DNA of 64,000 bases from NCBI GenBank assembly GCA_021234155.1, contig JAJEKV010000075.1, positions 3,939,720-4,003,719 on the forward strand, given 5' to 3'. This document shows, piece by piece, positions 271-37,975 of this stretch. This stretch comes from Isoetes taiwanensis. Taxonomy: Eukaryota > Streptophyta > Lycopodiopsida > Isoetales > Isoetaceae. The notes beneath the pieces were generated by a model that had not been told where the DNA came from, did not search any database, and was given only the letters and a program-made list of their open reading frames with translations. Made by a program: the position numbers and the translations under genes. Each line of letters begins with the position of its first letter. Position 1 is the first letter of the stretch.

Positions 271-339
271 AATCAACTAATTGGGTTTACGGTATCTCGA
301 ACTCTGTATTTCCGATGTCTTTGGACCTGGAACCATCGA

Positions 340-10200: not shown

Positions 10201-10330
10201 CATTGTCTATCATTGTCTTTGCTTCTTGTTTGCTCATTGCCTCTTGTCTGCTTCTTGTCTGCTTCTTTGCCTCCTTCCCCCTCTTGTCTGCTCCTTGCCT
10301 CCCTGTCTGCTCCACTAATTTCTTGCAAAT
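10200..10330 (+). promoter_or_regulatory. Pyrimidine-rich tract before SLDQY gene copy A
   Basis: A low-complexity run of ttgtctgcttcttg-like units. Similar ctt/ttg tracts lie immediately upstream of the other two copies (15545-15725 on the minus strand and 24780-25050 on the plus strand). The tract is therefore a constant part of this gene, probably its leader or promoter. Confidence 0.45.
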
Positions 10331-10394
10331 GGTAACTTTGCAAGAACATCCTCGGCCCAGGCTGATTGAATACACTGCAAAGCGTCGCGCAGAA

Positions 10395-10890
10395 ATCGTG
10401 CACTTTTGATGATTTTTTTTGCAACTTTTGGGAGCATCGATGGCGTCCGCAGTCCAACCCACAGGCTTGCAAGGCAGCTGAGCAACTTCATTATCGATCG
10501 CTATACTCGTCATCTCCCTCCACTGGAGGAGATCAATTTGAGTCAGGCAAGGTTCACTCTAAGTGCTTTCATTGAACCCCCCTCAGATTTAAAGATAGGC
10601 TAGAACAGTTGAAGGACATGCTTTTCCATGGTTTCATGGCCTACTCTCTGGATCAGTATGCGCCTCTGGTCATTCCTACTAGTGAGAAGAATAGGATTTA
10701 TATCCTCATTGAACTTTACAACTTCCATTACAAATCTTTTGTGGATATTGGTAAGCTCCTATTCCGTTCCCTTGACTTCAACATCCCGTGGTTACTGTCT
10801 AAATTCCCCACCTGGGATACAATTCCTTGGGATACACGTGACCTATGGCTACATAGCACACAACACATAATAGGTACATATCACAGGTGA
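10395..10890 (+). pseudogene. Unknown mobile-cluster gene (SLDQY family), copy A
   Basis: Function not recognised. It is read in two overlapping frames (10406-10603, then 10609-10890), so one frameshift separates the halves. Shared features with copy C (25056-25646), in order: an L-x3-L-x-NFI-x2-R segment, P-L-x-EIN, EPP, a Gln/Leu-rich stretch, A-x-SLDQY, a Tyr-rich middle (FV-x2-G-x-LFFR) and WDTR-x-LW near the end. Overall similarity is low but evenly spread and motif order is kept, suggesting an old family held under selection. A palindrome fragment follows at 11090. Confidence 0.5.
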
Positions 10891-11089
10891 AGATACTCCA
10901 TTGGAATATGTGTATAAACTGGTATAAAGATTTTCATAGAAATTAAGTATATAAGCAAGTGATTTTCGTGTAATTAAGTAACATCTTCATGTAATTAAGT
11001 GATTTTCGTGTAATTAAGTAATTAAGTAATATCTTCTACCATTTTCCTTGTTTTTTTTCATGTGATTGTTCTATTTGTGGTCATATTAT

Positions 11090-11180
11090 TGCAGTAGCCA
11101 CGGTCTTGAAATCGCTTTCGATTACAAATTATTGAAGGGCCTATTTATGCCGTGGCTCACGATCTCTATGAGATCCCGTT
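11090..11180. repeat. Palindrome-array fragment 1
   Basis: Contains gtagccacggtcttgaaat and, 40 bases later, attacaaattattgaagggc followed by gccgtggctcacg. It is the reverse complement of units in the array at 14461-14775, where ccttcaataatttgta follows each palindrome. It lies just past the end of SLDQY copy A. Confidence 0.7.
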
Positions 11181-11773
11181 TTGTTACCACCACCGAATGG
11201 TATAATACTTCAGCATTATTGGTATTATTCTTCATCATTCTTGGTATTATACTTCAACAGTATTAGTATTATACTTCAACATTATTGGATTCGTAGCTAT
11301 AAATTCTTTCAGCTTCATTAGAGTTTTTTTGAGGTCAAATAAGGGCCTCCTAAGAATATATTAAGGGGGCCACCACGTAGGATCCCGAACCTAGCTTCCC
11401 CCCTCCATACCTAAATTTCACTCTCCCTAACCTAACTACCTAACCTCCCAAACCTAACCCCCGAACCTAACCCATAATCATTATTTCCTAACGACACGAA
11501 TATTTGATGATTATATATCTAGGATTTTCGTTTTCCCACCTTGAGCTTATGCCATCGAAGCTTCAGCACCATCGATCGAGCTTGCCCTCGCCATCGACCT
11601 TGCCATCGCCATCATCGGCGTAGCGATCTTGCCATCAGCGCCCGGGCAGTTTTGAATTGAATTATGGCGGTTCTTGCCGGCAAATAGAGCGAAATTTTCA
11701 ATTTAAATTGCTTTTTTGGCAAGAATCTTCTAATTCTAATCTCCGCTCGGTTCTCGGTCTTTTTGCAACGTCA

Positions 11774-14220: not shown

Positions 14221-14460
14221 GCTAAGTTGTTTAGACAAAAACCAGTGGGGAAAAAAAGAGGGCAACTTGGTATAAGTCCGCGCGGTGTTGGCGATCAAGG
14301 GAGTGGAGATCAATGAGATGTAGGCAAGGCAAAGGTTATGTCCGTATTGAGAGCTCTTGATAACGTCTCTACTGTAAAAGAGTTGGTTTATTTATCAGTT
14401 CGATAGTGCTCGATTAATGCGAAATCTTTGTGTTGTAAGTAAATTGGATGCATGTATTGC

Positions 14461-14775
14461 GCCATTGCCCGCGGTCGCGAAATATGGGCTGTAACTAAAA
14501 GCGGATCCATCGTATTTGCACCGTAGCCACCGCATCGAAATAGGCCCTTCAATAATTTGTGGCGAGTCGATTTAAGCACCGTCGGCGGTCTTGAAAATAT
14601 GGCCTCAGAACTAAACTGGACCCACGTATTTCGCACCGTAGCCACGGTGCGAAATAGGCCCTTCAATAATTTGTAACTTCGGTCGATTTAAGCCGTGGCT
14701 CACGGTGTGAAAGAGGCCCTTCAATAATTTGTACACGAGTCAATTTACCGCACCCGTGGCTCACGGTGCGAAATA
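14461..14775. repeat. Palindrome array 2
   Basis: About five units of roughly 60 bp, each with a core near gcaccgtagccacggtgcg, then aaataggcccttcaataatt. The core is a near-perfect inverted repeat. The array sits between the convergent 3' ends of the transposase-like gene (14220) and SLDQY copy B (about 15000). Confidence 0.85.
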
Positions 14776-14994
14776 TATCACCCAATAACTAGAGAATATT
14801 AACATATTAGAGAACATATTAACATATTAGAGAATATTTATAGAACATATTATCACGGTATCATATGAAATATTTATGATAGATAGCAAAGGTTACTAGA
14901 GACCATGGCAGTATGTCCCTAGTAACCTTCCCCTAGGTTCCTAACCCCTTCCCTTCCCCTTTCCCCTCCCTCATGCGGGTCTAACCCATGCATC

Positions 14995-15542
14995 CGGGTT
15001 AGGAGTCAAAGCTCACGCTCCTCCCAAAGTGATTCTTCCCACCGTATGGGGTACCTAGTCATTAGAAAAAGTAATTCCACAGGATGATACTCACGGAAGA
15101 AGAGCGGACCCAACTCCACAAAACCGTTGTACTCGTGGTAGTACACCCTAATAAGGCCATACATCTGTCCCCGGTTAATTTCATGAATGAACTCTGATAT
15201 GTATGCATCCAGAGAGTGTGCTAAATATCCAAAGCCGTAAGAAGAAGAGGCCTCAATTCTTTGTAGCATCTCGTCCGGATAAGGAGGGGTTCAAGAAGTC
15301 CCCTCATTGCGGTCTCCTATAACATTCGGATGGATTAATTTCCATCGGTGGCTCATGACCACAATCAAATCGCTCGAGAATGAAGTTGATCAACTCCATT
15401 GTAAGCTCCTTGGTGGGGCCCCGTGGCGCAACCTCCACTCCAAGAAATGGTCCCATAGCTCATCCATTCCAGGCCGCACAGAATGCCTGGGGCATGCTTG
15501 CAGGCCTTCTGGAGTAGCCCAGGGAGGATTGGGTCCAATCAT
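14995..15542 (-). pseudogene. Unknown mobile-cluster gene (SLDQY family), copy B
   Basis: Nearly the same sequence as copy C (25056-25646) but broken by at least two frameshifts. The N-terminal part (starting M-I-G-P-N-P-P at 15542) and the C-terminal part (15269-15006, with AHSLD-A-YISEF, GLIRVYYHEYNGFVELG and FFREYH) are in different frames. The usual SLDQY reads SLDAY. The upstream caaggaacaagg tract (15545-15725) is the reverse complement of the tract before copy C. A transposase-associated domain is encoded just upstream on the same strand (15733-16146). Confidence 0.6.
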
Positions 15543-15732
15543 TTGCACAAGCAAGCAAGGAACAAGGAGCAGAGCAAGGAACAAGGAGCAAGAAGCAAGG
15601 AAGAAGACCAAGTAGCAAGGAACAAGGATCAAGATCAAGTAGGAAGAAGCAAGGAACAAGGAAGATCAAGGAGCAAGAAGATCAAGGAACAAGGAAGACC
15701 AAGTAGCAAGAACCAGGTCCATAACGTAAACC

Positions 15733-16146
15733 CTACAATAACCTAACGAGATGGCGATCACCTTCGACAGTCGGCTCTTCTGGAGCAACAAAAGCCCTCG
15801 GCTCACAAATAATATCTGTGTCGCAGCCACTCCCCTGCTCTATTTCCTCAGCGGCTACCTGGCTGCAACCAACATGTCCCTCTTCTGTGCGAGGCATTGC
15901 CACATCGCAGTCCTCAATCATGTTCACTTCAGCCCCAACATTGAAGCCAAGATTTGCATTACTTATGCGCAAATGCCGCAGATAATCTGCACGCCTAAAA
16001 GACAAGCCATGGGGATTGGCAAGAATACACCTTTGGCATTGGCAAATGCAATCCCTCACAACAGTGTTGGATTTGCGAAGGCTTGCCCTGAATGATGCCC
16101 ATTTGGACTCTCTATCGTGATCCCACCATGTTGAGTACGGAATCAA
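15733..16146 (-). CDS. Transposase-associated Cys-rich domain (tentative)
   Basis: A 137-residue frame. Residues about 6-60 carry STWWDHDRESKW, then C-I-C-Q-C-Q-R-C, then R-x6-RHLR. This resembles the N-terminal transposase-associated domain of plant CACTA (En/Spm) proteins, which has a CPC-x2-C core followed by a basic HL segment and probably binds zinc or DNA. The rest is acidic and low in recognisable features. It lies directly upstream of the pyrimidine tract and SLDQY copy B on the same strand and could be an upstream exon or an independent gene. No ATG marks the start; the frame simply opens here. Similarity was judged by eye. Confidence 0.4.
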   Translation of the reverse strand: MIPYSTWWDHDRESKWASFRASLRKSNTVVRDCICQCQRCILANPHGLSFRRADYLRHLRISNANLGFNVGAEVNMIEDCDVAMPRTEEGHVGCSQVAAEEIEQGSGCDTDIICEPRAFVAPEEPTVEGDRHLVRLL

Positions 16147-16149
16147 GAC

Positions 16150-17590
16150 ACCAACTGGATTCTTGGCTTCACACTTCTGGGCGAAGCAGCTTCAACTGCC
16201 TCTTGCTTGTGGATTGTGGCTTCTTCAAACCTAAACCTCTGTTACTCTTAGGTCATCGTAGCTAGGAGAGATAAGCTTGAGCGCCTCACTCCGTGACACT
16301 TCTAGCTTGCTTGAATTGCGTTCGGTGCATAAGATTGACAAGTGCAAGGTCTTTAATACAAGAAAAAATGCATCGTGCTTTAAACAACTTGCCTACATTA
16401 CCAAGTCGACAGTATGCTCCTTGGAGATGAGGTGCCTGAGATAGGAAGAGAAACAATCAATACATGTATTTCTTACTAGAATTTAATTTGAATCATGTAT
16501 TGGTTTCAATGGCCAGTTTTAACAAGTAAAAACAACCAAAGTTGTAAACTATGTAATTCTGAGGGAAAATACAAGAGGTTGCAATACAAGAGGTTGAAGG
16601 AGCGAACCAGCAATTGAACTAATATTATCTGAAAATATTTTAAGTAGCTTCTACTTGATAGGTTTGTACACACCCAATTAGTTAGCCAAGTCCAATTGCC
16701 CCCAGGCAAAGGAAGTAGTCCCTTTTGATCCCTGATGGAACCCCTGTGCCATCTATAATTCTTTACTTCCTATCAAGTTCTAAAGGGCATAAATAACTTC
16801 ACTTAGGGTCCTCCTTCCTTCGCATTCATGCATTCGAGCCTGATATGGTACAGCAATCACGTTTGTCATAAGCACCAAACATTCATGCGGATGTGGAGGT
16901 TCTCTTAGGAGTCTTAACAATTGTTTGCTTGTTGCATAAGTTGTCTAAGATATTATGATTCTTCATACAATCATGTCTTTGATACAACGTTTTCTATGGA
17001 GATTATAACCTGTAAAAAAGGAAGAAAGCACTTACAGCAGAACTCCAGCAAGATTGCCATTTAAACAAGAATAAAGGCCCTTAAGAGATAATCTTTCCAC
17101 CCAATTCATTTTGCAAAAAACCTACATATGCATAATGAAATATCATCCATAAGCATATTGAGAAATCCTCAAGCGAAGTATCTTAAAAAGGAAGTTACAA
17201 TGAGAAAGAATTAGATAGTTAGGCATTACCCACTAATCTAAATCTGAGAAAAGTTAGTGGATAAGGCTACTTGGCAGCAGTTCTACGATTCACGGTAGGC
17301 TGAACAATCCTGATGGGACATGAGCTGTAATTTTCACCATCGTCTAGATAAATCACACTAAGTCTAGACCGAGAAAATAATTTCAGATAAACAAATTAAG
17401 TAGTGCCAAATGGATAGTTAAGCTGTTTCAAATAGGAATTGTCAATTCTATTGCATCCATACTCCTTAGGAAGCTTAGTCAACGATTTAAAGGATTCCTA
17501 TGCAGAAGTATGACAAAGATATTCTGATGCAATTGTTTGGAATTGGGGAGCTGCCAAACTATAACGTCTAGCCACTAGTTTAGAGGATTA
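16150..17590. other. No gene seen
   Basis: About 1.4 kb of AT-rich sequence without a supported frame or clear repeat. Confidence 0.5.
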
Positions 17591-17689
17591 CCATGCAGAG
17601 GAGCTCTGATACCTTCGTGCACATGACTCGGAAGCAAGGTTTTCCCGAGCAAGGTTTTCCCGAGTTTGTGTTTAGGTTTAAGGTGTTAG

Positions 17690-19060
17690 CTGTGGTATTT
17701 TGCTTGATGGCTCCAACAATTACATCTCTAATTCTTAGTGCAAATCGTCTAAGTGCAATAAGTTATCTTGTTTTTCAAAGAACCATTGGATTCTTAGTGC
17801 AAATCGTCTAAGTGTAATAAGTTATCTTGTTTTTCAAAGAACCATTGGATTCTTAGTGCAAATCGTTAGAAAGAACCATTGGATAAGATAAATTAGATAC
17901 AATTAAAACCATTGGATGACGTGGATAACTATTGGATCGTCTATAGCGAACCTTAGTACCAACTAGATATAGGCATGGTTTAATGGTGTTCCACTAATGA
18001 TATCCAAAATGGGGGGATAATGTTAGGATATTGCGTAGTCTTGCCATTTTATAATGCTTGGGGATTTGTTGCAATGGTCCTATTCCCCATAAACAATTAC
18101 ATCTCAAATTCTTAATGGTCTAAATTATACCAAGATGTAGGAACGGTTTAATGGTGTTCCACTAACGATATCCAAAATGGGGGAATAATGTTAGGATATT
18201 GCATGGTCTTGCCATTTTAATGCTTGGGGATTTGTTGCAATGGTCCTTTCCTCCATAAAGAAATACATCTCACAATTCTTAATGGTTTGTTATGCAAAAA
18301 TGTAGGCGTGGTTTAATGGCCTCAGTGGACGATAAAAAATCATTCTCATTCTCATTCTAACAATATCCAAAATGTTAGGATATTGTTAGGATTTTGCGTC
18401 GTCATATGACATTAATGCTTAGGGATTTGTTGCAGCGGTCCTGCACCCCCTCAAGGAATACAAATCAAATTCTTGATGGTTTTGTTACGCAAAAATAGGC
18501 GTTAAGTAATTGAAGTAGTTGAAGTAACTTGTCTTACATGGAATACTAGTATAAGGACATGTGATCGTGCACGTGCATCACATGTAGCAAATCAAGTACT
18601 CTGTCCTACCACTATAAAGGCCCGTGATATGGAAGGATAGGACATGTAGAGAATCGAGTATTCTTTCCTACTTCTATAAAGACATGTGACAATAGAAGTA
18701 TTACACATGTCGTAATTCATGTATTCTTTCCTACAATGCCTTAGCAAATAAAGTACTATGTCCTACTACTATAAAGACATGTGACATGGAAGCATACGAC
18801 ATGTAGAGAATCAAGTATTCTTTCCTACTTCTATAAAGACATGTGACAATAGAAGTATTACACATGTCGTAATTCATGTATTCTTTCCTACAATGCTTTA
18901 GTAAATAAAGTACTCTGTCCTACTACTATAAAGACATGTGAATGGAAGCATAGGACATGTAGAGAATCAAATATTCTTTCCTACATCTATAAAGACATGT
19001 GACAATAGAATTATTAGACATGTAGAAATTCAAGTATTCTTTCCTACAGTGGATTGTATT
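17690..19060. repeat. Three neighbouring tandem-repeat fields
   Basis: 17720-17880: the phrase ggattcttagtgcaaatcgt with aataagttatcttgtttttc, two to three copies. 17990-18480: units of about 150 bp built on tgttaggatattgc, gcttggggatttgttgca and caatggtcct, three copies. 18540-19060: units built on ctataaagacatgtgac, attctttcctac and gacatgtagagaatc, at least four copies. Each field has its own unit and the copies are close to one another. Confidence 0.85.
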
Positions 19061-19201
19061 ATAAAATGACATGTCACAATAGAGGAAACTACAAAACAAC
19101 AGTGGATGTTTTAGTCCACTGAAAAAAGAACACCATTATCGAACAAAACCATACCTCCACAAGTCCACATGTAGGATTCTTTGAAAACAGGACATGTAGA
19201 C

Positions 19202-19591
19202 CTACCAAAACTGATGTTTTCCACAGTGGACCAAAAACCGGGGTGAGTGTGTCCTCTCAATAATTTCCTGCATCTCAAACCTGACCATTCTAGCGAAGGC
19301 AAGCTTGGGAATCAGAGGCTGGGTGCGTGCCTGCCAGTACCTAATCTCCCTCAAAGCCTGAGTGCCAGGAGGAGCACCCTTCATCTTCTCAGGGCCACCA
19401 TATCTAACACTAGGCTCCCCTTCCTTAGGCTTCCGCTTATTACCAAGCTTATCAGTCTCCTTGCACGCATCTCTCTCGGCTTGTCTCGCACTAGGAACAA
19501 GCCTAGGAGGCTTTTGCCGCTCGGATTTCTTCGGCTGGATTTCAGCTTTTAGGGGCTTCCTAGTACATGTTCCACTCGAACTAGGGTTCCG
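19202..19591 (-). pseudogene. Histone H3-like segment (alphaN and alpha1), C-terminal part of the 19-20 kb gene
   Basis: The frame is open for about 130 residues. A basic Lys/Arg/Pro-rich stretch, like an H3 tail, runs into APPGTQALREIRYWQ, then T-x-PLI-x-KLAFARMVRFEM. In H3 the same place reads RPGTVALREIRRYQ, T-x-LLI-x-KLPFQRLVREI, so helix alphaN and most of alpha1 align without gaps. After about residue 115 the H3 similarity stops, and helices alpha2 and alpha3 were not found downstream, where tandem repeats begin. The frame sits just past the end of the transposon-type N-terminal half (19595-20290), the same order as in the fused protein at 26007-27152. The two parts are now in different frames, so the copy is broken. 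Confidence 0.65.
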
Positions 19592-19594
19592 GGA

Positions 19595-20290
19595 TCAACA
19601 TCTTTGGTCCACTGATGATGATCTTCTTTGGGGCGGCTGATCCTGGCGATCTTCTTTGGACCAGTGATCTTTGATCTTCTTGGGCCCGTCGATCCTGGCG
19701 ATCATCTTTGGACCAGGTGATCTTTGGTCATCTTTGCACTTCCATAGTCTGCGTTCTTCCTCCCCCCACCACTTGCCAAATGTTTGGGAATGCAATAGTG
19801 GTCCCAACGTCCGAGGGCGAGGAGATAGCGATTCATGAGCCCTTTGGGCACCATGGCCTGTCCACCGGCCAAAGCACACGGCCGTGTGTAGAACCCCCTC
19901 CCGTGGTTTCAACCGTAATCCAGACTCATTACACAAGAACTGGAATGGCGTGACTCCGTCTTGGGACATGGATGACATCAACACAGGCCACCTGACGTAT
20001 GACCCGACGGCTTCCTCAATGTCTCGCTCGGGGGGTGGGGAACGCCCGGTCTGCGGCTGTTGGATCGAGTTGTGTCCCATTGCTACCACAATACAGTCAT
20101 CTGGAACTGGAATATTGTGGCAGACAGTGGCATCACGGAAAACTCCTTCCCCAACAACCTTACCAGCGCTCAGCAAGGTGACCCGACTAGGAAGCACGGT
20201 CGGGTTTTCGAAATATTCGTCCACACTATTATTAATAGTGTGGGCGACGATTCCAAGGGTTTGCCCGAGTCTTACGTAAGGACAACCTCC
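19595..20290 (-). pseudogene. Transposon-protein N-terminal half (DUF8039-like), copy 2
   Basis: The frame is open upstream of the usual start codons, from about 20290, and ends at 19595. Shared with the protein at 26007-27152: F-E-N, a V-x-L-x-S-x-G-x-x-V/L-VGEG stretch, A-x-x-C-H-x-x-PVPDDCI, then an A-x-x-S-Y/F-V-x-W-x-x-LM block. The pattern of a short beta-rich start, a charged or proline linker and a final V-x-W-P resembles the DUF8039-type domain found next to plant CACTA transposases. That assignment is from memory of the family pattern. The C-terminal quarter is Lys/Asp-rich and shows no domain. The H3-like segment continues the gene at 19591-19202. Confidence 0.55.
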
Positions 20291-20519
20291 TCCTCTCGTC
20301 CATCTGGCGGCTTGTGATGGGAATAAGCGCCTCGCCCTCGTGATTGGAATAGAAGTCTCCGGCTGCTAGTAATGACCTCATCAACATTCAGGCTTTCGTC
20401 AAAAGCCCTCATTTTGTGGGGATTTGAGCTAAGCGCCTTCCATGGACATGGCCGGTTTTAGCAAAGGACAAGAAATTCAATTAAGCAATATTGTGCGTCG
20501 ATCCATAAACCCCTAGGCT

Positions 20520-20830
20520 GAAAAATATTACGGTAGCCCGCGGTGCGAAATCGGGCGGTCAAAAACTGCCGACATCTGTTTTTAGCACCGTAGCCACGGT
20601 CTTGAAATAGGGCAGTCAAAAGCTGCGATAAACGACTTTTTTTCGCCGTACCGTATACCATCTTGTCGGGCAGTCAAAAATCGACATCTGTTTTTCACGC
20701 CGTAGCCCGCGGTCGCGAAATAGGGCGATCAAAAATTGCCCGACCGCTTTGTTTTACACCGTAGCCCGCGGTCGCGAAAATCGCCCGATCAAAAGCTGGC
20801 GACATCCTGTTTTTTACGCCTTTGTAGCCA
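20520..20830. repeat. Palindrome array 3
   Basis: Five units of about 60-70 bp with a core such as gtagcccgcggtcgcgaaa followed by tagggc-gatcaaaa. Compared with array 2, the spacer is changed and the palindrome arms differ (gcccgc/gcgg against gccac/gtgg) while staying complementary. It lies between the H3-fusion gene copy 2 and the 3' end of the next minus-strand gene. Confidence 0.85.
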
Positions 20831-20999
20831 CCATTAAAGAATACCTAACATATACATCTAACAAGGATTTATTGCTCACATTGAATTCTAACAATTAATG
20901 AATATCATAAATGAACATTCATACAAAAGCAATTTAGATCATATGAAAACAATTGATACATTATAGAAAAAGACAATTTATAGAAAAGACATTATATTA

Positions 21000-21660
21000 A
21001 TACATAAGTTTTTAAGTACATTTCCTTTTCTTGGCATCGAGGAACTGTAGTACCCGAATCAAAATCTTCTAAGTCCTCTTCTTTTACTCCCAATTGCATC
21101 TAACGGATACAATATGTCGGGTCCTTCACGTACCCGCAGGGACAAAAGCGAGTGTTTCCTTGTCCGCTCCACCCAAGCCTATAGCTGCTTTTATTTGCAA
21201 GGACATAGTACATTTTGAAGCCCCAGAAGGCGTACATTCGCGATAGCCCTATCTCTTGCTACCACTTTCGATCATAGTTTGAGGCTAGGGGCACGTGGTT
21301 TTGCCGACTAATGTGAGCCTTAAGCTTGAGGGACCTCCTGTACTCGGATGGACTATATTTATTGTGAAACACAATAATTTCCCCTTGTGAAGGTAGCCCA
21401 TATAATGTGCAATCTTGGCGTCCCTACCTAGGGTGACTCTCACGATGCCTTGCCTGAAGTCATCAATAAATAACTCTGCATAAAAGAAACATCAGATTCA
21501 AGAAGAAATAGAAAATGAAACCGGATAAATACCTCTGTTTTGTCCCGATTCGACAACAATTTGGGTTTGTTATTTTGAAAGAGGACTTGCGGCTCCGTTC
21601 TATGAATTGAAGCGGTGTTTGAAGAGCTAGCAGCTTCAAATTTGACATCTTTCAACTTTA
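21000..21660 (-). pseudogene. Unknown cluster gene, downstream part
   Basis: Not recognised. On the minus strand, frames with conserved-looking content run from about 21490 to 21060: an LFIDDFRQGIVRVTLGRDAK stretch, then (one base shifted) GEIIVFHNKYSPSEYRRSLK, then a C-terminal part with a C-P-C-G segment. The sequence reads like real protein but needs at least one frameshift or intron. It follows the 325-residue frame at 21663-22640 on the same strand, and could be its last exon or a separate gene. Confidence 0.35.
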
Positions 21661-21662
21661 CT

Positions 21663-22640
21663 TCATACCACCTTCACTTTTTGCATGACAATTTCAAATG
21701 CATCCTCTGGAGGTATTGAGGATCCATCATAAGTCACAGCCTCCATCATTTGTCTGGGGACATCAGTCTCAAAGTCTATAAGTCCTCCCAGGCCTACAAC
21801 ATGGGCATATATCTGGCCCAATATCTCGTCTTCTCTCAACCCTGTCACTTCAGATATGTCCGGCAGCAACAAGTATGGTTTCCCACCTACATGGATGGGA
21901 TATGCTTCTGATAGCCCCCAAGTAGATAACTTTTTCTCGGAGACCTCCTCTTCCACAACCTCGATCTCCTCATTTTCCAGTACGAGCTTCTCTTCCTCAG
22001 GATCTATCGGCTCCTCTACTGGTGAGGTGGGGCGTTCTGTTTCAGCGACCTGTGCACTTGAAGAAGAACTGGCATCTTTGCTTGGCTTAGTGTAAATCAT
22101 GTATGTGCTGAACATGATATCTAGGCCGAAAAAACTTTCCTTCCCCTCTTGCCTGCACAGTTCTGCAGGTAGTTTCTTCAAGGACCTTCTAATTCGGTCA
22201 TGATCAGGTTTCGGAAACATCTTAAGAAAAGCTTGGATGCTTAGTGAAGGCAAACCCGATCCGCGGGGACATGGTTTCCGCGTCGGGACCAGCTCCAGCC
22301 ATGAAGCTATGAAGGATGCCGCCATATGCATCGATAAACTGTTACACTCTGCCATAATGTCTACGCTCGGGCAAAAATTATTATGCCGCGGTGGTTGCAT
22401 CCACGGCTCCTCTAGCTCCTCCTCGAACTTTTCAGGATGCTTCTGACGAAAATCCCGTTCTTTCTCCACTATTTTGTCATACCATGCGCTAAACAGCTCC
22501 CATGCCTTATCTGACCCGCTATTTGCCATTCTCGTGGAGCAGCGCCTCGATTTATGACACTTAGAATGTGAGCGCCTTTGTAGCGGCTTGATTTGCAATA
22601 GAGACTTAGAGCGTGGCAACGCAGCGATCGAAAATAACAC
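21663..22640 (-). CDS. Unknown cluster protein, 325 residues
   Basis: Not recognised. This is the longest uninterrupted frame in the 11-25 kb region. The first ~37 residues are basic and Ser/Arg-rich; an internal Met (in STRMANSGSDKAWELF, about residue 37) may be the real start. The middle (40-190) is mixed helical with Trp-rich positions. Residues about 195-245 are strongly acidic (Ser, Glu and Val runs), a likely disordered linker. A compact C-terminal part (250-325) includes YLLLPDISEVTG and a GGLIDFE segment. No Cys/His cluster or transmembrane stretch. It begins next to palindrome array 4 and ends next to the frames at 21000-21660. Confidence 0.45.
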   Translation of the reverse strand: MLFSIAALPRSKSLLQIKPLQRRSHSKCHKSRRCSTRMANSGSDKAWELFSAWYDKIVEKERDFRQKHPEKFEEELEEPWMQPPRHNNFCPSVDIMAECNSLSMHMAASFIASWLELVPTRKPCPRGSGLPSLSIQAFLKMFPKPDHDRIRRSLKKLPAELCRQEGKESFFGLDIMFSTYMIYTKPSKDASSSSSAQVAETERPTSPVEEPIDPEEEKLVLENEEIEVVEEEVSEKKLSTWGLSEAYPIHVGGKPYLLLPDISEVTGLREDEILGQIYAHVVGLGGLIDFETDVPRQMMEAVTYDGSSIPPEDAFEIVMQKVKVV

Positions 22641-22659
22641 TTCCTTAATTTATGCTATG

Positions 22660-22985
22660 CACAAATTAAGCACCGTATACTCTGGTCGCGAAAAACAAGA
22701 CTTCGATAAGTTATTCTATTCACAATTTCGCACCGCGTGGCTCACGGTGCAAAAATACCATTCCATTTTTTATTACGTGCACATTTTACACCGCAGGTGG
22801 CTCACGGTCTTGGCAACTTCTTCAATATCTTATTCTATGTATAACCGCGCACCGTGGCTACGGTGCGGAATATACTCTAGTTTTTATGCTATGCACATTT
22901 TTCAAGCACCGTGGCTACGGTGCGAAAATGGCCCTTCCATATTTTATGAGAGCCACAATTTCGCGCAAGTAAGTGCGGTGTGAAA
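22660..22985. repeat. Palindrome array 4
   Basis: Five to six units of about 55-60 bp with cores such as caccgcgtggctcacggtgc and gcaccgtggctacggtgcg, followed by aaaa-tggcccttcca and tattttat. It separates two minus-strand genes: the start of the 325-residue frame and the end of the one at 23081. Confidence 0.85.
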
Positions 22986-23080
22986 ACACATCCACAATCG
23001 AGTTGTATATACATGGCTACTTTAAGTCTTATATCCCAATGAAAGCAAATGTTTGCAATTAATATACAATAGATCTCCAG

Positions 23081-24470
23081 TTAACAATCACTTATATTTA
23101 TATTAGAAAGATTCATATACGGATATATGACTTTGGGTAGCATGCATGACCCCAATTTATAGCATTCTTCTCTGCGCTTTCCCCACCTTCTCCGCCATCT
23201 ATCATGAAATGGAAGAAGTTTAAGTCTGCTCAAACTCCAATTCTTTGCCGAACATCGAATAGAGACCACTAAGCGCTCGGCTCTCGGACTTTTGAACAGC
23301 TGATTATCCTTATGAATGTTCAAGTCTATGACAACGGAATGAGTGCCATCATTGTCATCTTGTTCGACAGAATCGAGCGATACTTTCTTCCTTCCGCGGA
23401 CATTTAAGCCATCTCCTATACTTAAAAGTGACATCTGAGTTTGCTTCCGAATGCAATATCTGGAACCAAATCGTGTCTCAACTTATCCTCGCATTCATTA
23501 CACATTCAGCTCCATCGTTGAAGTCGAGCACTCCAACCTTCAAGAAATACACTATCTAAAAAACTATCTGTACCCATTTGTTGAATAAAACATCTTCAAG
23601 GTCTTCTTTACATTGTCGGCTCTTGAATATGGCAATGAACAGATCAATTCCTAAATTTATCTTCACATGCCCGCAGACTCCTCCCTTCTCCTTCAATGCC
23701 GTGAACATTTCCTGCGACAACTTACTCCGTGCTAATAAGATAGAAGTGGCACCTAGAGGCCTGCGATTATAAATCGATGTGGTGGGCAATGGAAGCTCGG
23801 TTAGCTTGGATCTTAGGTGGAGAGTATTCATACCTCGAACTACTATATACCCCTTTCTCGAGCTATCTTGGTGTGCCACCTTCGAACAACAAGCAGCCCA
23901 TATCTTGGTGAAAGCAATGGAAAACACTGCTTATCGAGTGTGAAGAGACAGTGTTTTCCACATCAGATATACACAAACCTGAGAGAATAGGAATGAACTG
24001 GATAAGTAACTGAACTAATTTGAATATGAATTGCATAGAATTACATACTCACAATTTGCTTCTAACCGTGGGAAAGTTAAATTAAACTTGCTTATTTTTC
24101 TTTTGCCATATCTGTTTGGAGTGTATACATGCCTTACTTGTACAAATATCTCTTTGCCTGATCGAAAAATCGACCACCAAAGCCTTCCAATGTGCGAAAC
24201 ATCATTTCTCCTGCATCTTTTTGACTTCGCCATTCACCTCGCATTGAGGTTGGAGTGTAACAAAGCTCCCGGTCGATACCACGCAAGCTTTCAAACTCAT
24301 TTCCGAAGCGTGATAGAGCTTATAGCCATCTAGTCACAGAATTCAAATCAGAATGTGGAGCGGAATCGAAATACTAGGAAAGGCTACGCAATTTTACCTT
24401 GATCGAAGTTTTTTCCGTGGTCGAAACTCCCTTTAAGCGGAGTTGAAGCGGTTCAAAGTGAACCGAAGCT
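23081..24470 (-). pseudogene. Unknown cluster gene in several pieces
   Basis: Not recognised. Pieces on the minus strand: 24290-24015 (the module also found at 1-270, with RHVYTPNRYGKRK), 23927-23556 (123 residues, with WAACCSKVAH, YNRRPLGATSILLARS and a C-terminal ending NKWVQIVF) and 23434-23081 (117 residues, basic, with SIGDGLNVRGRKK). Gaps between pieces could be introns. The 24 kb piece has a frameshift relative to the copy at 1-270. Transcription would start near the inverted repeat at 24750. Confidence 0.35.
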
Positions 24471-24779
24471 CCCTTGGCGCGGGCAATCGATCTTCGCGCA
24501 AACTCTGTTGTGGAAAACACCTGAGCGGGAATTGAGGGCGGGAGCTAACGGTTATAATTGCCACGTGTGTAATCTGACACCCAAAGCTAGAGGCACGGAT
24601 ATTACCGAAGCTACGTGCAGTCGACACCTGGAAAGGCGAAACCAAGGCTCGGTAAAAAAGTTCTGTACAAGCTCGGCTCCCCATTGGCCGCGAGTTTTTT
24701 GACGTGGCATCGAGTAAGGGCCCTTATTTGATCTCAAAAAAACTCTAATGGCTTTCACTTCTCACCTTTGTTCCATGTT

Positions 24780-25050
24780 TTCACCTTGCTTTCACTTCTT
24801 GGTCTTTGGTCTTCCTTGTTCCTTGCTACTTGATCTTGATGTTTGTTCTTCGCTACTTCATCTTGTTCCTTGCTCTTGATCTTGCTACTTGATCTTGTTC
24901 CTTGCTTTCTTGCTCCATGATCTTCCTTGTTTTTTGATCTTCTTGCTCCTTGATCTTCCCTGATCCTTACTTCTTGCTACTTGATCTTGATGCTTCTTGC
25001 TACTTGATCTTCGTGCTCCTTGTTCTTTGCTACTTGATCTTTGTGCTCTT
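24780..25050 (+). promoter_or_regulatory. Pyrimidine/TTG-rich tract before SLDQY gene copy C
   Basis: Repeats of cttgctacttgatcttg and related 10-15 bp phrases up to six bases before the chosen ATG. The same type of tract precedes copies A and B. Its constancy across diverged copies suggests a leader or promoter role. Confidence 0.5.
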
Positions 25051-25055
25051 TGCAA

Positions 25056-25646
25056 ATGATTGGACCGAATCCTCCCTGTGCCACTCCAGAAGGCCTGCAA
25101 GCATGCCCCAGACATTCTGTGCGGCCTGAAACTGATGAGCTATTTGACCATTTCTTGGAGTGGAGGTTGCACCACAGTCCCACCAAGGAGCTTGCAATGG
25201 AGTTGATCAACTTCATTCTGGAGCGATTTGATTGTGGTCATGAGCCACTGATGGAAATCAATCCATCTGAATGTTATAGGAGGCTTGCAATGAGGGGAAT
25301 TCTTGAACCCCCTCCTTATCTGGACGAGATGCTACAGCAGTTGAGGCCTCTTCTTCGTGCTGGTTATTTAGCACACTCTCTGGATCAATACATATCAGAG
25401 TTTATTCATGAAATTTCTAAGGGACAGATGTATGGCCTTATTAGGGCGTACTACAACGAGTACAACGGTTTTGTGGAGTTGGGTCCGCTCTTCTTCCGTG
25501 AGTATCATCATGTGGAATTACTTTTTCTAATGACTAGGTATCCCATATGGTGGGAAGAATCAGGCTGGGATACGCGTGAGCTCTGGGTTCCTAACCCAAA
25601 TGCGTGGGTTACCCCTCATGAGGGAAGGGAAGGGTTAGAAACCTAG
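25056..25646 (+). CDS. Unknown mobile-cluster protein (SLDQY family), copy C
   Basis: The only intact member here, 196 residues from the ATG at 25056, chosen because copies A and B also place ATG after TGCAA. Residues 1-35 are Pro/Cys-rich; 35-110 helical with LINFILERF, PLMEINPSE and EPPPYLDEML; then AHSLDQYISEF, GLIRAYYNEYNGFVELG, FFREYHHVELL and WDTRELW near the end. No Cys/His metal site, signal peptide or membrane helix. The fold is unknown. The acidic and aromatic composition and the steady association with transposase-like genes suggest an accessory protein of the element. It ends 130 bases before palindrome array 5, convergent with the H3-fusion gene. Confidence 0.6.
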   Translation: MIGPNPPCATPEGLQACPRHSVRPETDELFDHFLEWRLHHSPTKELAMELINFILERFDCGHEPLMEINPSECYRRLAMRGILEPPPYLDEMLQQLRPLLRAGYLAHSLDQYISEFIHEISKGQMYGLIRAYYNEYNGFVELGPLFFREYHHVELLFLMTRYPIWWEESGWDTRELWVPNPNAWVTPHEGREGLET

Positions 25647-25779
25647 GGGAAGGTTACTTTGACATACTGCCGTTACTTGCCGTTCTCTAAATGTTCTCTA
25701 ATATGTTAATATATTCTCTAACATGTTAATATGTTCCCTTTGATCTTGTGGTTCACCTTCTATGGAATGATTCAATTTA

Positions 25780-25920
25780 AGCCGCGGGCCACCCGCGGTC
25801 GCAAATTGCCTCGCCTCGGTAACTACGAGGAATTTCAAGCCACCGTGGCCACGGTGCGAAAATACCTGCCCTCACAAAGTAATTTATACCCATTTCGCAC
25901 CGTGGCAACGGTGCATTGTA
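25780..25920. repeat. Palindrome array 5
   Basis: Three units including gccaccgtggccacggtgcg and tcgcaccgtggcaacggtgc, the clearest palindromes of the family. It lies in the 360-base gap between the convergent 3' ends of SLDQY copy C (25646) and the H3-fusion gene (26007). Confidence 0.85.
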
Positions 25921-26006
25921 AGTATACATAGAGAATAGATACAATGAAAATACTTAGCAAGCAAACAAAATATACAACAAAGATCATTTCATTAATATCA
26001 AACACT

Positions 26007-27152
26007 TTACATGCCTCGGAAGTAATTTGTCAAGGCAACATCCTGCCTCATTATTGTTACTCTCTTGGAATGCACAGCACATTTCACACAGTCTTCGAAG
26101 AGCCTGACCATGTGATTCTCAACGGCCTCGTGCAGAGCATCAAGGGCATCTGCAGTGAATCGAGTCACCTCTTCTGGCATTGGAAAACGGTAACCAGCTT
26201 TCCGGTACCTTGCACCATCCCTCTTCATCTTATTGTATCTCTCTTGAACCACCTCCTTACATATTCTAGCCATTGTGAGCTTCGGAAGCACCCACTCCAC
26301 GTGGTTCTGGAAGTGGCGGATTTCCCGAATCCATCTTAACTTTTGCTTAAACGGCTGGCCCTTCTTATTCAGCTTAGGAGGGCCTTTACAGAGAACCTGT
26401 TTCTTCTGCAGCTGCTTAGGCTTAGTCTTCCTCTTATGTCTACTGGATTCCCCGACCTCTAAAGTCTGCTCAACAACAGGAACCACTACTGCATCTGGTA
26501 CTACGGTTTCAGGTACAACCGTCACAGGTACTGCAGTTGCCTCTTGTAGAACGATATTTTCTTCGATTTGAGCTGTCAGAGGGACCTGGATAGGGACACC
26601 CTGATACATAACATTCAGGGGTTCAAATACATTCTGAACAGCAATAGGAACGTTCTGGACAGGCATATCCTCATTCTGAACCGCAACAGGAACATTCTGG
26701 ACATGCACATCCTGATGGTCATCCTCTTGGGGCTTAGCATTCTCATTGTCGGCTCCAAGCAAGTCTGGCCCCTGGTTTATCTCCACCAATCCAACTTCCG
26801 GCACTCTACGAGGAAGTCCGGTGATGTAATCTATCTCATTGGCCAGTACAGAGAATGTGTTAGGAGTTGGCGTCAAAGAAGCCATCAACCTGAGCCACAC
26901 GACGAAGGAATGGAGTGCCTCAAGCAAGTTGTCAGCTCCCATCGAAGGAACAGGCAACTGCGTGTCTGGTGCAACTACCACATCGACGTTAATGCCGATG
27001 CAATCATCAGGCACAGGAACTCCATGACAGATAGCTGTCTGCACAAAGGTTCCTTCTCCGACTAAATGGCCAGAAGAGAACAGGTAAACACGCCTTGGCT
27101 CCGAAGGTATGTCTCTAAAAATCTCCTCTGCGTCATTGGCAACATTCTCGAA
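26007..27152 (-). CDS. Transposon-type protein fused to a histone H3/CenH3-like fold
   Basis: Open for 381 residues with no in-frame ATG near its start; a TAG at 27153-27155 precedes it, so an upstream exon or a nonsense change is likely. Numbered from the GTG at 27044: residues 5-60 carry CHGVPVPDDCIGINVDVV, LPVPS and F-V-V-W, like the DUF8039-type domain of plant CACTA transposon proteins. 110-145 has V-Q-N-V-P repeats, 160-195 is Val/Pro/Glu-rich and 200-235 is basic, like an H3 tail. 238-345 aligns with histone H3: REIRHFQ (alphaN), an alpha1 segment, TADALDALHEA with HMVRLFEDC (alpha2), AVHSKRVTIM (loop 2) and RQDVALTNYFRG (alpha3). T-A-x-A-L-x-A-L and M-R-x-D recall CenH3. Loop 1 is about 20 residues longer than in CenH3. 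Palindrome arrays flank the gene. Confidence 0.8.
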   Translation of the reverse strand, partial: FENVANDAEEIFRDIPSEPRRVYLFSSGHLVGEGTFVQTAICHGVPVPDDCIGINVDVVVAPDTQLPVPSMGADNLLEALHSFVVWLRLMASLTPTPNTFSVLANEIDYITGLPRRVPEVGLVEINQGPDLLGADNENAKPQEDDHQDVHVQNVPVAVQNEDMPVQNVPIAVQNVFEPLNVMYQGVPIQVPLTAQIEENIVLQEATAVPVTVVPETVVPDAVVVPVVEQTLEVGESSRHKRKTKPKQLQKKQVLCKGPPKLNKKGQPFKQKLRWIREIRHFQNHVEWVLPKLTMARICKEVVQERYNKMKRDGARYRKAGYRFPMPEEVTRFTADALDALHEAVENHMVRLFEDCVKCAVHSKRVTIMRQDVALTNYFRGM

Positions 27153-27469
27153 CTACGGCGTCCGGACACCTTTGATGGATGTTTTAAACGGAAGACGGTG
27201 CTCTGCTCGATTGTTAGAAGCACCGACATAGTTAGTGGCGCCCCCTCGCTGTCTTCACCATGATGTGTGCGCCGGGCGGCGCCTCTCTCTTCGTTCTTTG
27301 GTTGTTGGGATTGTTAGATCCGCATTACCGCTATTCTCGCGCCATTGTCTCTCGAATCGTAATGCAACAAATGAGTGGACAAGATTGATAAATATGCAAT
27401 GTAATGACTTAGAACAAATATCAAAAGCGGACAACATCGATAACAAAGATAATTATATAAAGAGTACCG

Positions 27470-27655
27470 CTGCTACCGTGCGAAAAACGGCAAAAAGATA
27501 GCCACGGAAAACAAATGCTTTCGCACCGTGGGCCACGGTCGCGAATAGCGCTTAATCTATAACTAATTCCCAACTTCATTTTCGCGGGCCGCGGTGCGAA
27601 ATACTTGTCATTCATCAATTGAATACCAACTAAGTTTAGCACCGCGCCCACGCCG
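27470..27655. repeat. Palindrome array 6
   Basis: Two to three units, including tcgcaccgtgggccacggtcgcg and cgcgggccgcggtgcgaaat, between the 5' side of the H3-fusion gene and the 3' end of transposase-like copy 2. Confidence 0.8.
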
Positions 27656-27962
27656 CCAACCTAACATATTTGAAACATTATAGTTGCACATCATGGTCTA
27701 TAGTTATACATTAATATGAATTTGTTCATATAATTGATTCCCCAGAAGTATATCTTCTACCCTGTCTGATCCTTGTGGATCGCCACTGCCTTAACTTGTC
27801 TGCTGCACTAGAGCTACACCATATCTCGTTTTTTTTTTCCCCGCTCAACTTTTCTCCTCAATATTCTAGCCAACGCCGTGTGTCTTGTTTAGCTTTATCT
27901 TTTTTTCTCTAGCTTGCGCGATAATCCTTCTATAGAACCATTGGCACATCTGTTGCAATGAG

Positions 27963-30900
27963 TTACCACACGAACCTCAATGTTGTGTGAACCTGAAAAA
28001 AAGTATTCTTGGCTTGCTTATGTGACTTCTCCATTCCCTGCGTATTCCATATTCCTAAGCTCCCGTACTCTTTGGCAAACCATAAGCCATGGGCGTGAAG
28101 TATATGAATGTAATGTGTGACATTGCATTCTCCCCATGCTTGTATAAACGACTTCGTGAATTCAGTTACTGCTACTTTGAATTCATCTAACTTTCCACCC
28201 ACCATTTTCTTCTCTGCCATCAAAGTTACCAGACTGCTCAGATTCTGCCACGCTTTAATTTTCTTTAGTTTTGCCCTCCCACGTGAAGTACGGTCCTTAT
28301 ACCCCTCCCACTTTCCAGTTGGCAATGATCCATTCTTACGTAATTTAGTACAAGGCAGAAATCTTTTCGCTTTCACCCCACCCATGGATGGTTTACAAGG
28401 AACCTTGCCTCCCTTCTTAGGATCTTGCAAGATTTTATAGTCACCACCAAAGATCAGAAAGCACGTTCTCAACATCTTTCATACACTTTTCTCTGGTTGA
28501 TTGTGGAGACTTATTCCAAGCAAAAAGAATGCTCATGTACACCATCTTATCCACTATTCTTAGAAAGGCATGGAGAGTGCAAATATGTACTCTCTTCACA
28601 GGAATTGCAAGTATGGGGATCAAAGTTTTGTCCTCCTTCTCACGCGTTGGTTCAGCATCCTGGTCACATTCGAGAGTACTCATTCCCTTCCCCTTATCAT
28701 CTACCCTAGCATACAAACAATTTAAGGACATGCGTGGGTAGTCTTACCGTAACCATGTTTCATGTTATACATGCACTTGATGGTCTTTAGATCAGCAGAC
28801 CAAATGCTATTCAACCTCGTAATCTCCTACAAAATGGTAGCCGGGAACCCCAAGCTTCTCTCCACTCCATGAGCAGCAATAATAGTAGGAATAGGTGTCT
28901 GCTGAAAGACCCAATTAGAAGAACACCATGATTTTCTTCCCAGAAAAAATATCCCTATCCACCAAATATGGTCCTCTGATTGAACAGAGAACTTCCCTTC
29001 CTCATTATCAGAATTTGACAACGCCCTGTTCATTAATGTCAAAGAAACCCTCTCATATTTCTCACCTTTGATCAGTTCCATCTCATCCAACTTTATAGCA
29101 ATTTGGAGTTTCCCTCCACATTCTTCCACTTTCATATCATAGAAGCGAACTAACAGAAGAAGCATTTTAGAGAGATCCATCCAACAATTATTCTTCTCAT
29201 TAAGAACAAATAGATCATTTCCGGAGCCACCCTTCTTCTTACTTTTCCCAGTGATTAGTGATCCCAAGTGCACGGATGTGGTGATCTGGTACATCTCTCC
29301 CAAATGTTCGATGTACTTCGCATTCCTCTTTGTTCCTTGCTTTGCTCGACATAACCGAAGTCTTGGCAGTATGGTCTTCGTAATACCCTGTTGCTTGATA
29401 CCATCCTGCAAACATCTAAAGAGAGCAATGTAAGCTTGTCGACTGATACCCACATTGTCACATAATTCTTGCATGTTGGGCAAAAGTATGCTGGTGGGTA
29501 TCAAATAAACGCCATGATCAAAAGACACCAAAGACCCAAAGACTTTCCAGCACTTTTTTTTTTTTTGTTTTTCATAATCGGCCATGCAATTCGATCATAC
29601 ATGCAAAATTTCAGGGCCTAATTTGGGATATTGAGTAAGCAATTAGAGAAAACCCATTTCTGCAAAGAATTTTGGTAAAAAGCAAACAAAATTTCTTAAT
29701 TCAGCCCAAATTAAGCTAAATTAGATGGGGCTTTTCAGATTTTCATAATCGGCCATGCACCCATATCCTACGTGCAAAATTTCAGAACCTAATTTGGGAT
29801 ATTGTGTGAGCAATTAGAGAAAAACCATTGCTGCAGCAGTTTTGGTACAGTGAAAAATTTTTTAATTCAGCCCAAATTAAGCTAAATCAGCTGGGGCTTT
29901 TTAGATTTTCATAATCGGCCATGCACCCATATCCTACATGCAAAATTTCAGAACCTAATTTGGGATATTGAGTGAAAAATTAAAGAAAAACCATTCTTGA
30001 AACAGGTTTTTTGTAAAACAGTGAGAAATCTCTTAAGTCAGCCCAATTTAAGCAAAATTAGATGGGGCTTTTAGGCTGAATATGGTCGAAATGACAATCC
30101 TACCTTGGTGGATAAGTTTTATGAAAAGATATGATGGATTGAGCAACTAATTGAAGATTCACATGCCAATTTGGAGTTTGGGTCATTTCTGCACACTAAT
30201 CAGACTCCAATCTAATGAAATCGATGCTAATCTGTTGAAAAATTCAAGCAATGTGGAACGATTCTTGGCTGAAGAATCATGAAGGGTGTAAAAAAACGAA
30301 CCCACGAGCACCCACCAGCACCCAAAAAAAAGCAGGAAGCAGGGGTGCTAAAAGCATGCGTCCGGACGCGTGCTTTTGCACCCCACCAGCATACTTTTGC
30401 CCTGCTATCAGCACTTTGACACTTTCCCAATTCAGTAAGCACCTGTTCAACAACAGCTTTTCTTAAATGGTTAGCTCCAGGAAGCTTCAACATATCTATA
30501 ACATCATAATTAGTTACAAGCTTTTTCAACAAACTAGCCATATTACAAGGTTTTCTCTTCTTCTTTTCAGCCATAGTAGGATCCATCAGATTTTTAATAG
30601 CGTGGATTCTTCTTCTAGAGCCCCCACCACTAGGGGCAAGTATACTTAGGGCCTTCAGTTCTTTTTTTCTCTCCCTCATGCCCAGTGGTGTCTTTTTCAG
30701 TCTTTTTGCAGTTTGTCATTGTCCTCAGAGCATCTCTTCAATCCTTGTTTAAGTGACTCCACCTCCATAAGCAACCTTTGATTGGAAGCTTGCAGTTCTT
30801 CTGTATTCTTAGACCCGTTGGTTAAGAAATAGTTACAATTGTTGGAGGTAATTACAATTGTGCTACCATATTGCAATGCACTCCACACAATTGATTGTAC

Positions 30901-31300
30901 ATTGTTCTCAAATGCACATCGAATTACTTGAAATATTATTGCAATAGCCAAGCGCACCTTGATTACCCTTACGGGCAAAATGAATAAGCCCATGGAGAAT
31001 GAAATTCGTGCTGTCTTACGGTGATCGGATCGATGGGATACAGCTTCCCCACGCCCCGAGAGATCAATATTCATTGCACCGAAGCTCGAAGAGCATTCTC
31101 ATCGACTGTTCCTTCCGATTATATTGATTTTTGTAGGGCAAAAGCGGTTCTTGGCACCTCCACACCAAATTGGCCTTTCAATTTTACGTATTCAAAAAGA
31201 ATTACTCATTGTCATTGCCCGAAATTAATAGAACAAGTTACCTCCGCCATAGATCGAATTCAGAGTCGCTATGATCGCTTTCCGAAGCTCCACAAACCGT
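27963..31300 (-). pseudogene. Transposase-like gene, copy 2
   Basis: Same order as copy 1 (11774-14220), with longer open pieces. About 31190: a homologue of the VPKECLPYRNKF start, decayed. 30830-30697: a coiled coil (EELQASNQRLLMEVESLKQG). 30679-30410: a basic segment with MDPTMAEKKKRKP and a helical part. 29490-28827: ELCDNVGISRQAYIALFRCL, then a lysine-rich part, then KVEECGGKLQIAIKLDEMEL and VQSEDHIWWIGIFF. 28731-28441: HICTLHAFLRIVDKMVYM. 28475-27963: FTKSFIQAWGECNVTHYIHI, FAKEYGSLGIWNTQGMEKSH. The last block holds an invariant Glu in both copies, a candidate for the final acid of a DDE site (inference). An intron with tandem repeats separates 30410 from 29490. Small frameshifts suggest decay. 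Confidence 0.55.
29620..30070. repeat. About 170-bp tandem repeat in a probable intron
   Basis: The phrases ttttcataatcggccatgca, tgcaaaatttcag and cctaatttgggatattg recur three to four times, ending with copies of attaagctaaat and tggggctttt. The repeat interrupts transposase-like copy 2 between two coding pieces. Confidence 0.85.
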
Positions 31301-31659
31301 GACGAAATTGATGCAATTCTTCGCCAAAAATACGAAGGAAAACTAGAGAATTCCTTCGGTTTGGGCGCAGGATTGACATCAAAACTAAATTGAAATGCCC
31401 TCCAAAGCTTTGGCCCAATTGAGGCATTCTTGAGGTGTCATTCCGGCTACTCCTTGTAGCTTCGGTTGATGGGAAGGTGGGGGAGGAGGGAGTTTAGGCG
31501 TAATGAGTAAAACAACAAGTAATAATGACGTTTACCAGGTTCCGGTTGCTCGGTATCGAGGTTCTGTTAAGGTTCGTGGGGGCTTTTTGCCCATACCTGC
31601 AGGTTCGGGTACCAACTAAAATCCAAATTTGGGAAGGGCTTACAAGGGCGTTAATAGAC

Positions 31660-32090
31660 TCCACCAAACCTCTAATGCCATGGCCACATTAAACCATATT
31701 GGTTAATGTGACCACTTTAGCCCATGGCCACATTAAAATCAAAGTATTAATGGCTTTTCCTTTATAGTGTCCATGATCTAAAGTGTTACTATGATAAAAA
31801 AATGTGGTATTCAATGGTTGGCACATGGCCACAGTAACCCATGGCCACATTAACCCATGGCCACATTAACCATTGTCCACATTAACCCATGGCCACATTA
31901 AACCATGGCCACTGAAAGCCATGGCCACATTAACCATTATGGTTTAATGTGGCCACTTTAACCCATGGCCACATTAACCCATGGCCACTGAAAGCCATGG
32001 CCATATTAAACCATTATGGTTAATGTGACCACTTTAGCCCATGGCCACATTAACCCAAAGTATTAGCCCATGGTCACTTTAGTCAAAATT
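31660..32090. repeat. Hairpin minisatellite with TGGCCAC core
   Basis: More than ten short units built from catggccacattaaccc and its near reverse complement ggtttaatgtggccac. Because both orientations alternate, several perfect hairpins of 14-16 bp can form (for example around 31920-31965). It begins next to the 3' end of the gene at 32149, echoing the position of the other palindrome arrays. Confidence 0.9.
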
Positions 32091-37974: not shown

Positions 37975-37975
37975 T

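Follow-up and report, generated by a model that had tools for sequence, protein, structure and literature searches.

A histone H3 fusion gene in the window

The window, by which we mean the whole 64,000-nucleotide stretch of the Isoetes taiwanensis assembly analyzed here, contains on its minus strand a stop-to-stop reading frame of 381 sense codons (26007-27152) that ends in a histone H3 fold. Residues 1-381 of this window copy are numbered along that frame. It has no ATG ahead of the conserved N-terminal domain, and intact copies start with MAQNS... about 60-70 residues earlier. The intact protein has about 440 residues and is composed of an N-terminal domain, a loose linker and the C-terminal H3 fold, which are laid out in the window copy as follows.

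26007..27152, minus strand: window copy of the H3-fusion gene, 381 sense codons and a stop codon; upstream frame disrupted relative to intact copies
26817..27152, minus strand: N-terminal domain, residues 1-112; also present in the gene at 19598-20365
26445..26816, minus strand: linker, residues 113-236; weakly constrained and in part repetitive
26340..26444, minus strand: basic segment ahead of the fold, residues 237-271; aligns loosely to the H3 tail from about K14
26010..26339, minus strand: H3 histone fold, residues 272-381; recognized by Pfam, by phmmer against PDB and by alignment to H3.1
26169..26246, minus strand: loop-1 insertion and surroundings, residues 303-328; evolves fast

In an all-against-all comparison of the window's frames, the N-terminal ~105 residues were homologous to the gene at 19598-20365 on the minus strand (36% over 107 residues, 2e-14). 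A candidate identity for this domain is Pfam DUF8039, a plant transposon domain; the profile set used, which may or may not include this family, gave no match to it.

Evidence for the histone fold

The initial annotation had read an H3-like fold with a loop 1 about 20 residues longer into the C-terminal part of this protein, and both points were confirmed. The Histone profile (PF00125) matched at 3e-18 with the frame, at 3.4e-18 with the longer frame and at 8.8e-19 with the last 115 residues, and the best PDB matches in two phmmer searches were H3 chains (1.2e-13 among the best 60 of 188 matches, and 1.2e-14 among the best 60 of 175). Other Pfam matches, to CENP-T_C, TAF and CENP-S, were weak. 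Alignment to H3.1 gave 48 identical residues out of 118 and a score 28 standard deviations above 200 shuffles. The alphaN, alpha1 and alpha2 helices, loop 2 and alpha3 can all be aligned as described, loop 1 has 21 residues more than that of the host H3, and alpha2 carries the T-A-x-A-L motif (RFTADALDAL). The AlphaFold model of the fusion was poor (pLDDT 41), with three C-terminal helices and with alphaN and alpha1 drawn as a single helix.

Based on the alignment, the residues C110, H113, D123 and L126 of the H3-H3' interface are kept, as are the DNA-contact arginines R69, R83 and R116. K56 and K122 differ, as do R128/R129 in alpha3, and the usual wrapping of DNA into a nucleosome is therefore uncertain. 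In the alignment, the fused domain takes the place of the first part of the H3 tail, including K4 and K9. Neither an ARTK nor an ARKS motif (from the tail ARTKQTARKS) occurred in 15 frames of this family (hereafter family 1), of which 11 extend past the basic segment on its upstream side.

CenH3 is characterized by a longer loop 1, T-A-x-A-L at alpha2 and a fast-evolving loop 1, and the fusion fold shares all three features. The protein had been placed nearer CenH3 in the initial annotation; the local likeness stands, whereas the overall placement does not, because over 85 host-H3 positions the window fold was 46% identical to the host H3 (L037) and no closer to CENH3: 41% to P0002, CENH3-like by sequence reading, and 40% and 43% to the Arabidopsis and maize CENH3. 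In a tree, the window fold sat without clear placement on one very long branch. The host's own CENH3 gene was not found among the at least 150 matches to P0002 listed, which were filled by H3 copies. The fusion also differs from CenH3 in being encoded by a many-copy mobile element.

Copies across the genome

We searched the 1.66-Gb assembly (1110 contigs) with the fusion protein and obtained at least 138 matching rows, which merged within 3 kb into at least 102 loci. Among the 102 loci from the matches listed, 68 carried both halves, 24 the H3 half only, 8 the N-terminal half only and 2 neither, as assigned with our own cut-offs. Because both halves stand together at 68 of these dispersed loci, they belong to a single repeated gene, and a host gene or an assembly join was ruled out as the source of the fusion. 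Besides the window, at least 15 rows extend from residue 2 to residue 337 or beyond. Twelve of these are 84-93% identical and the other three 59-66%. Fusion of a captured, diverged H3 to a transposon-associated N-terminal half, as originally proposed, is thus borne out by the repetition of the fusion and by an element defined through its copies, ends, gene order and transposase fold (see below).

Twenty copies were fetched with their flanks for comparison, most of which are broken or changed. A full frame from MAQNS to the stop was present in three of the 20 (L009, L013 and L015). The frame of L014 is open and reads differently near its start, those of L016-L018 are open with a changed C-terminus, and the remaining ones are broken, apart from L021, which was open in the genome search and was missed by the motif filter of the copy survey. 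L021 and L022 represent an older subfamily (53% and 59% identity), while the low score of L023 is due to a frame shift. As a query for homologous proteins, the complete fusion gave no match among 8000 scored candidates and the H3 end gave one candidate, which is CENH3-like; no relatives in viral contigs were confirmed.

The element that carries the fusion gene

Comparison of the copies placed the H3-fusion gene, as an accessory gene, in a DNA transposon that has six genes and many copies and encodes a transposase predicted to adopt a RAG1/Transib fold. A nested relative interrupts this element in the window.

24751..31677, minus strand: first part of the H3-bearing element, with its outer end CATTAGAGGTTTGG at 31677
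9894..11315, minus strand: the same element, continuing past the nested insertion and holding an ORF198 copy at about 10370-10887
1..402, minus strand: the same element, later part running off the window
27729..31178, minus strand: RAG1/Transib-like transposase gene (predicted fold), broken in the window copy
29476..30389, no strand: inserted DNA containing a 166-bp tandem repeat; found in the window copy and missing from those fetched copies that cover the site
25038..25643, plus strand: ORF201, an accessory gene without a Pfam match
25837..25917, no strand: palindrome array of the TTTCGCACCGTNGCCACGGTGCGAAA type, 2 units, 3' of the H3 gene
27464..27645, no strand: degenerate palindrome array between the transposase and H3 genes
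11316..24750, plus strand: nested 13.4-kb relative with 32-bp inverted ends at 11316-11347 and 24719-24750 (97%)
11864..14357, plus strand: transposase of the nested relative, 66% at the DNA level
19598..20365, minus strand: gene of the nested relative with the N-terminal domain
21663..22640, minus strand: geneX-like gene of the nested relative; likeness by eye and DNA match to L019
Within the nested relative, minus strand: its ORF201 copy

Homology between copies starts sharply at 31677, and the DNA outside differs in the 8 copies listed for that end. On the other side, homology extends to 24751, where the other element is inserted in the window while other copies continue. Six copies were traced downstream, and five of them reach the far end, giving lengths of 9.3-13.4 kb; C1018 does not. 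The two ends of the element read CATTAGAGG... and ...AACTCTAATG. By eye, no 5-bp target duplication was seen in any of the four copies with both ends readable; one end of the fifth full-length copy (C394) falls in a microsatellite and is missing its first bases. The transposase and the H3 fusion lie on one strand, and ORF201, ORF198, geneX and geneY lie on the other. ORF198 is a paralogue of ORF201, with window copies at 25038-25643, 15009-15665 and 10370-10887. In profile comparison, none of these four genes gave a significant Pfam match, and no RAG2-like gene was recognized among them by Pfam.

When the nested relative is removed in silico, the host element rejoins exactly, with 0 bp of duplication. 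The 32-bp inverted pair bounds this relative and was thereby ruled out as the ends of the H3 element. No H3 was found in the nested relative in the all-against-all comparison of window frames. Both elements, with transposases at 27729-31178 (minus) and 11864-14357 (plus), are multi-gene, have CATTAGAG ends and lack a visible target duplication.

Several further features lie outside the element. An array of 16-bp CATGGCCACATTAACC units (31673-32088) runs outwards from the element end. A Ty3-type retrotransposon with an integrase and a chromodomain occupies 35734-39105 on the minus strand, and two inverted 1.1-kb repeats, 96% identical (34738-35869 and 42914-44040), are likely retrotransposon ends. 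At 55347-55832, also on the minus strand, an exon with an RG repeat and an acidic stretch probably belongs to a host gene; it resembles the C-terminus of plant NF-YC11/DRAP1-type proteins.

Transposase and palindrome arrays

The RAG1/Transib core fold of the transposase was predicted from a structure model of a homologue (P0006). RAG1/Transib transposons have a 5-bp target-site duplication and ends resembling the RSS heptamer (CAC...), with a RAG2-like partner in RAGL elements. While the H3 element would share the core fold with them, it differs in its CATTAGAG ends, in the lack of a visible 5-bp duplication and in having six genes, including accessory genes, with no RAG2-like gene recognized by Pfam. 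Among the best 75 of 120 transposase rows, the H3 fusion follows one transposase clade. An H3 locus was located within 5 kb for 23 of 32 rows at ≥80% identity and for 6 of the 11 at 72-79%; below 72% identity, this dropped to 3 of 32 rows.

Repeats of the TTTCGCACCGTNGCCACGGTGCGAAA type, about 57 bases apart, are sited between the genes of the element. Five elements contained 13, 14, 9, 7 and 7 palindrome matches, against 0 in their five right flanks; the two richest copies have arrays in all five intergenic gaps, and the others in fewer. In the window, the palindrome core pattern gave 12 matches against 0.03 expected, several of them being one palindrome counted on both strands.

A second family of H3 fusions

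A search of the source genome with P0002 returned at least 150 rows, of which about 15 resemble ordinary H3 (L037 was read), and many others fall within open reading frames 420-590 codons long. In three such loci, which were chosen for carrying H3 (L035, L036 and L038 on contigs C913, C1044 and C1065), an N-terminal part of about 230 residues is followed by a linker and a near-canonical H3, 87% identical to the host H3 (Pfam 2.5e-41). The tail of this H3 is replaced before about position 37; ARTK is absent, and ARKS occurs in the linker of one of the three sequences. The N-terminal part has no detectable similarity to family 1, nor to ORF201 by BLASTP or hhalign.

Searched alone, this N-terminal part gave at least 150 rows at 73-100% identity, about 125 of them without an internal stop, and from this copy number we infer that the second, larger family is mobile. 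No RAG1-like transposase row lay within 20 kb of the best 50 of its at least 150 rows, and 17 of these 50 had an H3 row within 1.5 kb, as compared against 40 H3 rows among the matches listed. The gene downstream in L039 matched geneX by BLASTP (3.5e-5 over 65 residues); because hhalign on tiny alignments found nothing, this link is suggestive only. Since H3 occurs in two fusion families, it was joined to repeated proteins in this genome at least twice, or once with the front half later exchanged.

Selection on the fusion protein

We compared the window copy or L015 with L021 or L022, that is, two young with two old copies in four pairs, with synonymous differences of 0.43-0.65 per site. Between these subfamilies, dN/dS was 0.16-0.20 in the fold without the loop-1 insertion, 0.09-0.11 in the basic segment, 0.25-0.26 in the N-terminal domain, 0.56-0.94 in the linker and 0.56-0.75 in the loop-1 insertion. 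As far as these four comparisons go, the two subfamilies differ in a way that points to purifying selection acting on both the fold and the basic segment. The contrast was weaker when 210 pairs of 21 copies were pooled (208 for the linker): 0.44 for the fold, 0.32 for the basic segment, 0.55 for the N-terminal domain, 0.87 for the linker and 1.10 for the loop-1 insertion. Within the old pair L021-L022 the fold gave 0.55, and single young pairs exceeded 1, for example L009-L014 (1.86).

Changes were also counted on a tree of 16 young copies, omitting the old subfamily (L021, L022) and three frame-shifted copies (L014, L023, L026) and ignoring recombination. The loop-1 insertion had accumulated 41 nonsynonymous and 4 synonymous changes (omega 2.2), whereas the remainder of the fold had 33 and 16, respectively (omega 0.55; Fisher p=0.006). 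The fold did not differ significantly from the linker on this tree (114 and 38, omega 0.97; p=0.35), and the N-terminal domain showed no clear constraint (omega 0.87). This weak contrast may be expected if many copies are dead.

Possible function of the fusion

The initial annotation had suggested that such a protein could direct the element to particular chromatin, label its copies or disturb host nucleosomes. We favor the reading, at a probability of roughly 40%, that with this fusion the element encodes its own H3 variant, which pairs with host H4 and builds silencing-resistant nucleosomes on the element, in the manner of VANC. The N-terminal half, perhaps together with the palindrome arrays, would bring the protein to the element, where nucleosomes with an altered tail could not be marked for silencing by the host in the normal manner; the element would therefore stay expressible and accessible. 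The outcome would be anti-silencing as in VANC, achieved through a supplied histone. A more general version, which we regard as doubtful, is that transposons build their own chromatin: in at least two families, one of them in a transposon, the start of the H3 tail would have been swapped for a family-specific domain, the products would form with host H4 element-specific nucleosomes that silencing enzymes cannot mark, and the loop-1 insertion would diversify in an arms race as in CenH3.

It is unlikely, though worth weighing first among the alternatives, that the H3 part instead tethers the transposition complex or the element DNA to particular chromatin, centromeric or other, with loop 1 tracking its target as in CenH3. 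The excess of nonsynonymous changes in the loop-1 insertion (41/4 against 33/16 in the rest of the fold) and the local T-A-x-A-L would fit such a tether; those counts, however, come from partly dead copies, and overall identity is no closer to CenH3.

Histone folds also serve as dimerization and DNA-binding modules in NF-Y, TAF and CENP-T proteins, and the fold could be a mere module of this kind in a regulator of element genes that never enters nucleosomes. The weak CENP-T_C, TAF and CENP-S matches point this way, as do the changes of R128/R129 and several H3 lysines in family 1. We nevertheless consider it improbable, as PF00125 and H3 chains far outscore the other fold families, both alphaN and the H3-H3' residues are conserved, and the fold of the second family is 87% identical to the host H3.

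A similarly low probability attaches to a decoy that titrates host H3 chaperones, H4 or silencing enzymes throughout the nucleus without acting on the element's DNA. The kept residues would allow H4 pairing and the start of the modifiable tail is missing, both compatible with titration, but fusion with a domain of the element family, together with arrays specific to the element, suggests that the protein acts locally, and by argument a decoy would cost the host.

It is very unlikely that the gene is a functionless passenger, captured like any other and simply copied along with the transposon: although breaks or changes affect most of the 20 fetched copies and the young copies alone show no significant difference between fold and linker, the between-subfamily dN/dS is far lower in the fold and basic segment (0.16-0.20 and 0.09-0.11) than in the linker (0.56-0.94), full frames persist in 3 of the 20, and the second family also ends in H3. 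Passive capture is made less likely by that family, whose H3, less diverged and joined to a different N-terminal domain, also lacks ARTK. Plant transposons often capture fragments of host genes, which for the most part are pseudogenes (PMC13317346).

Relation to known systems

Accessory genes and captured pieces of host sequence are familiar in transposons, and histones are encoded by some viruses. Host-gene capture by transposons and virus-encoded histones are already known; here the capture is by a RAG1/Transib-like transposon. VANDAL elements have a MULE-type transposase, unlike the H3 element with its predicted RAG1/Transib fold. No transposon known to us has a core histone under selection, and no report of a transposon-encoded H3 was found in open-licence PMC papers.

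VANDAL elements (see also PMC5735166) are the nearest functional parallel: their VANC proteins recognize tandem-repeat motifs in noncoding DNA of the same elements and remove silent marks (PMC10398659), and KIU copies of VANDAL carry a captured Ulp1 domain (PMC13317346). In these respects the H3 element is similar, being a multi-gene plant DNA transposon with an accessory gene, a captured host domain and noncoding tandem arrays of short motifs, here putative targets. The captured domain is here a core histone, and anti-silencing by the fusion would be an analogy with VANC. The word "histone" was not found in the main text of PMC13317346. Virus-encoded histones, reviewed in PMC9145170, are likewise core histones encoded by selfish elements; the present case is a chromosomal transposon with a single H3 fused to an unrelated N-terminal half.

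The element carries the fusion in many copies, and signs that natural selection has kept the H3 part functional suggest a transposon that builds or alters chromatin for its own benefit. If the fusion acts on the element's own DNA, selfish DNA would supply its own histone, going beyond the evasion of chromatin marks, and if it makes element-specific chromatin, it would form a category of its own. Such a system would be a natural test of the roles of the H3 tail and loop 1, and may offer a ready-made tool for locus-specific, tail-altered nucleosomes.
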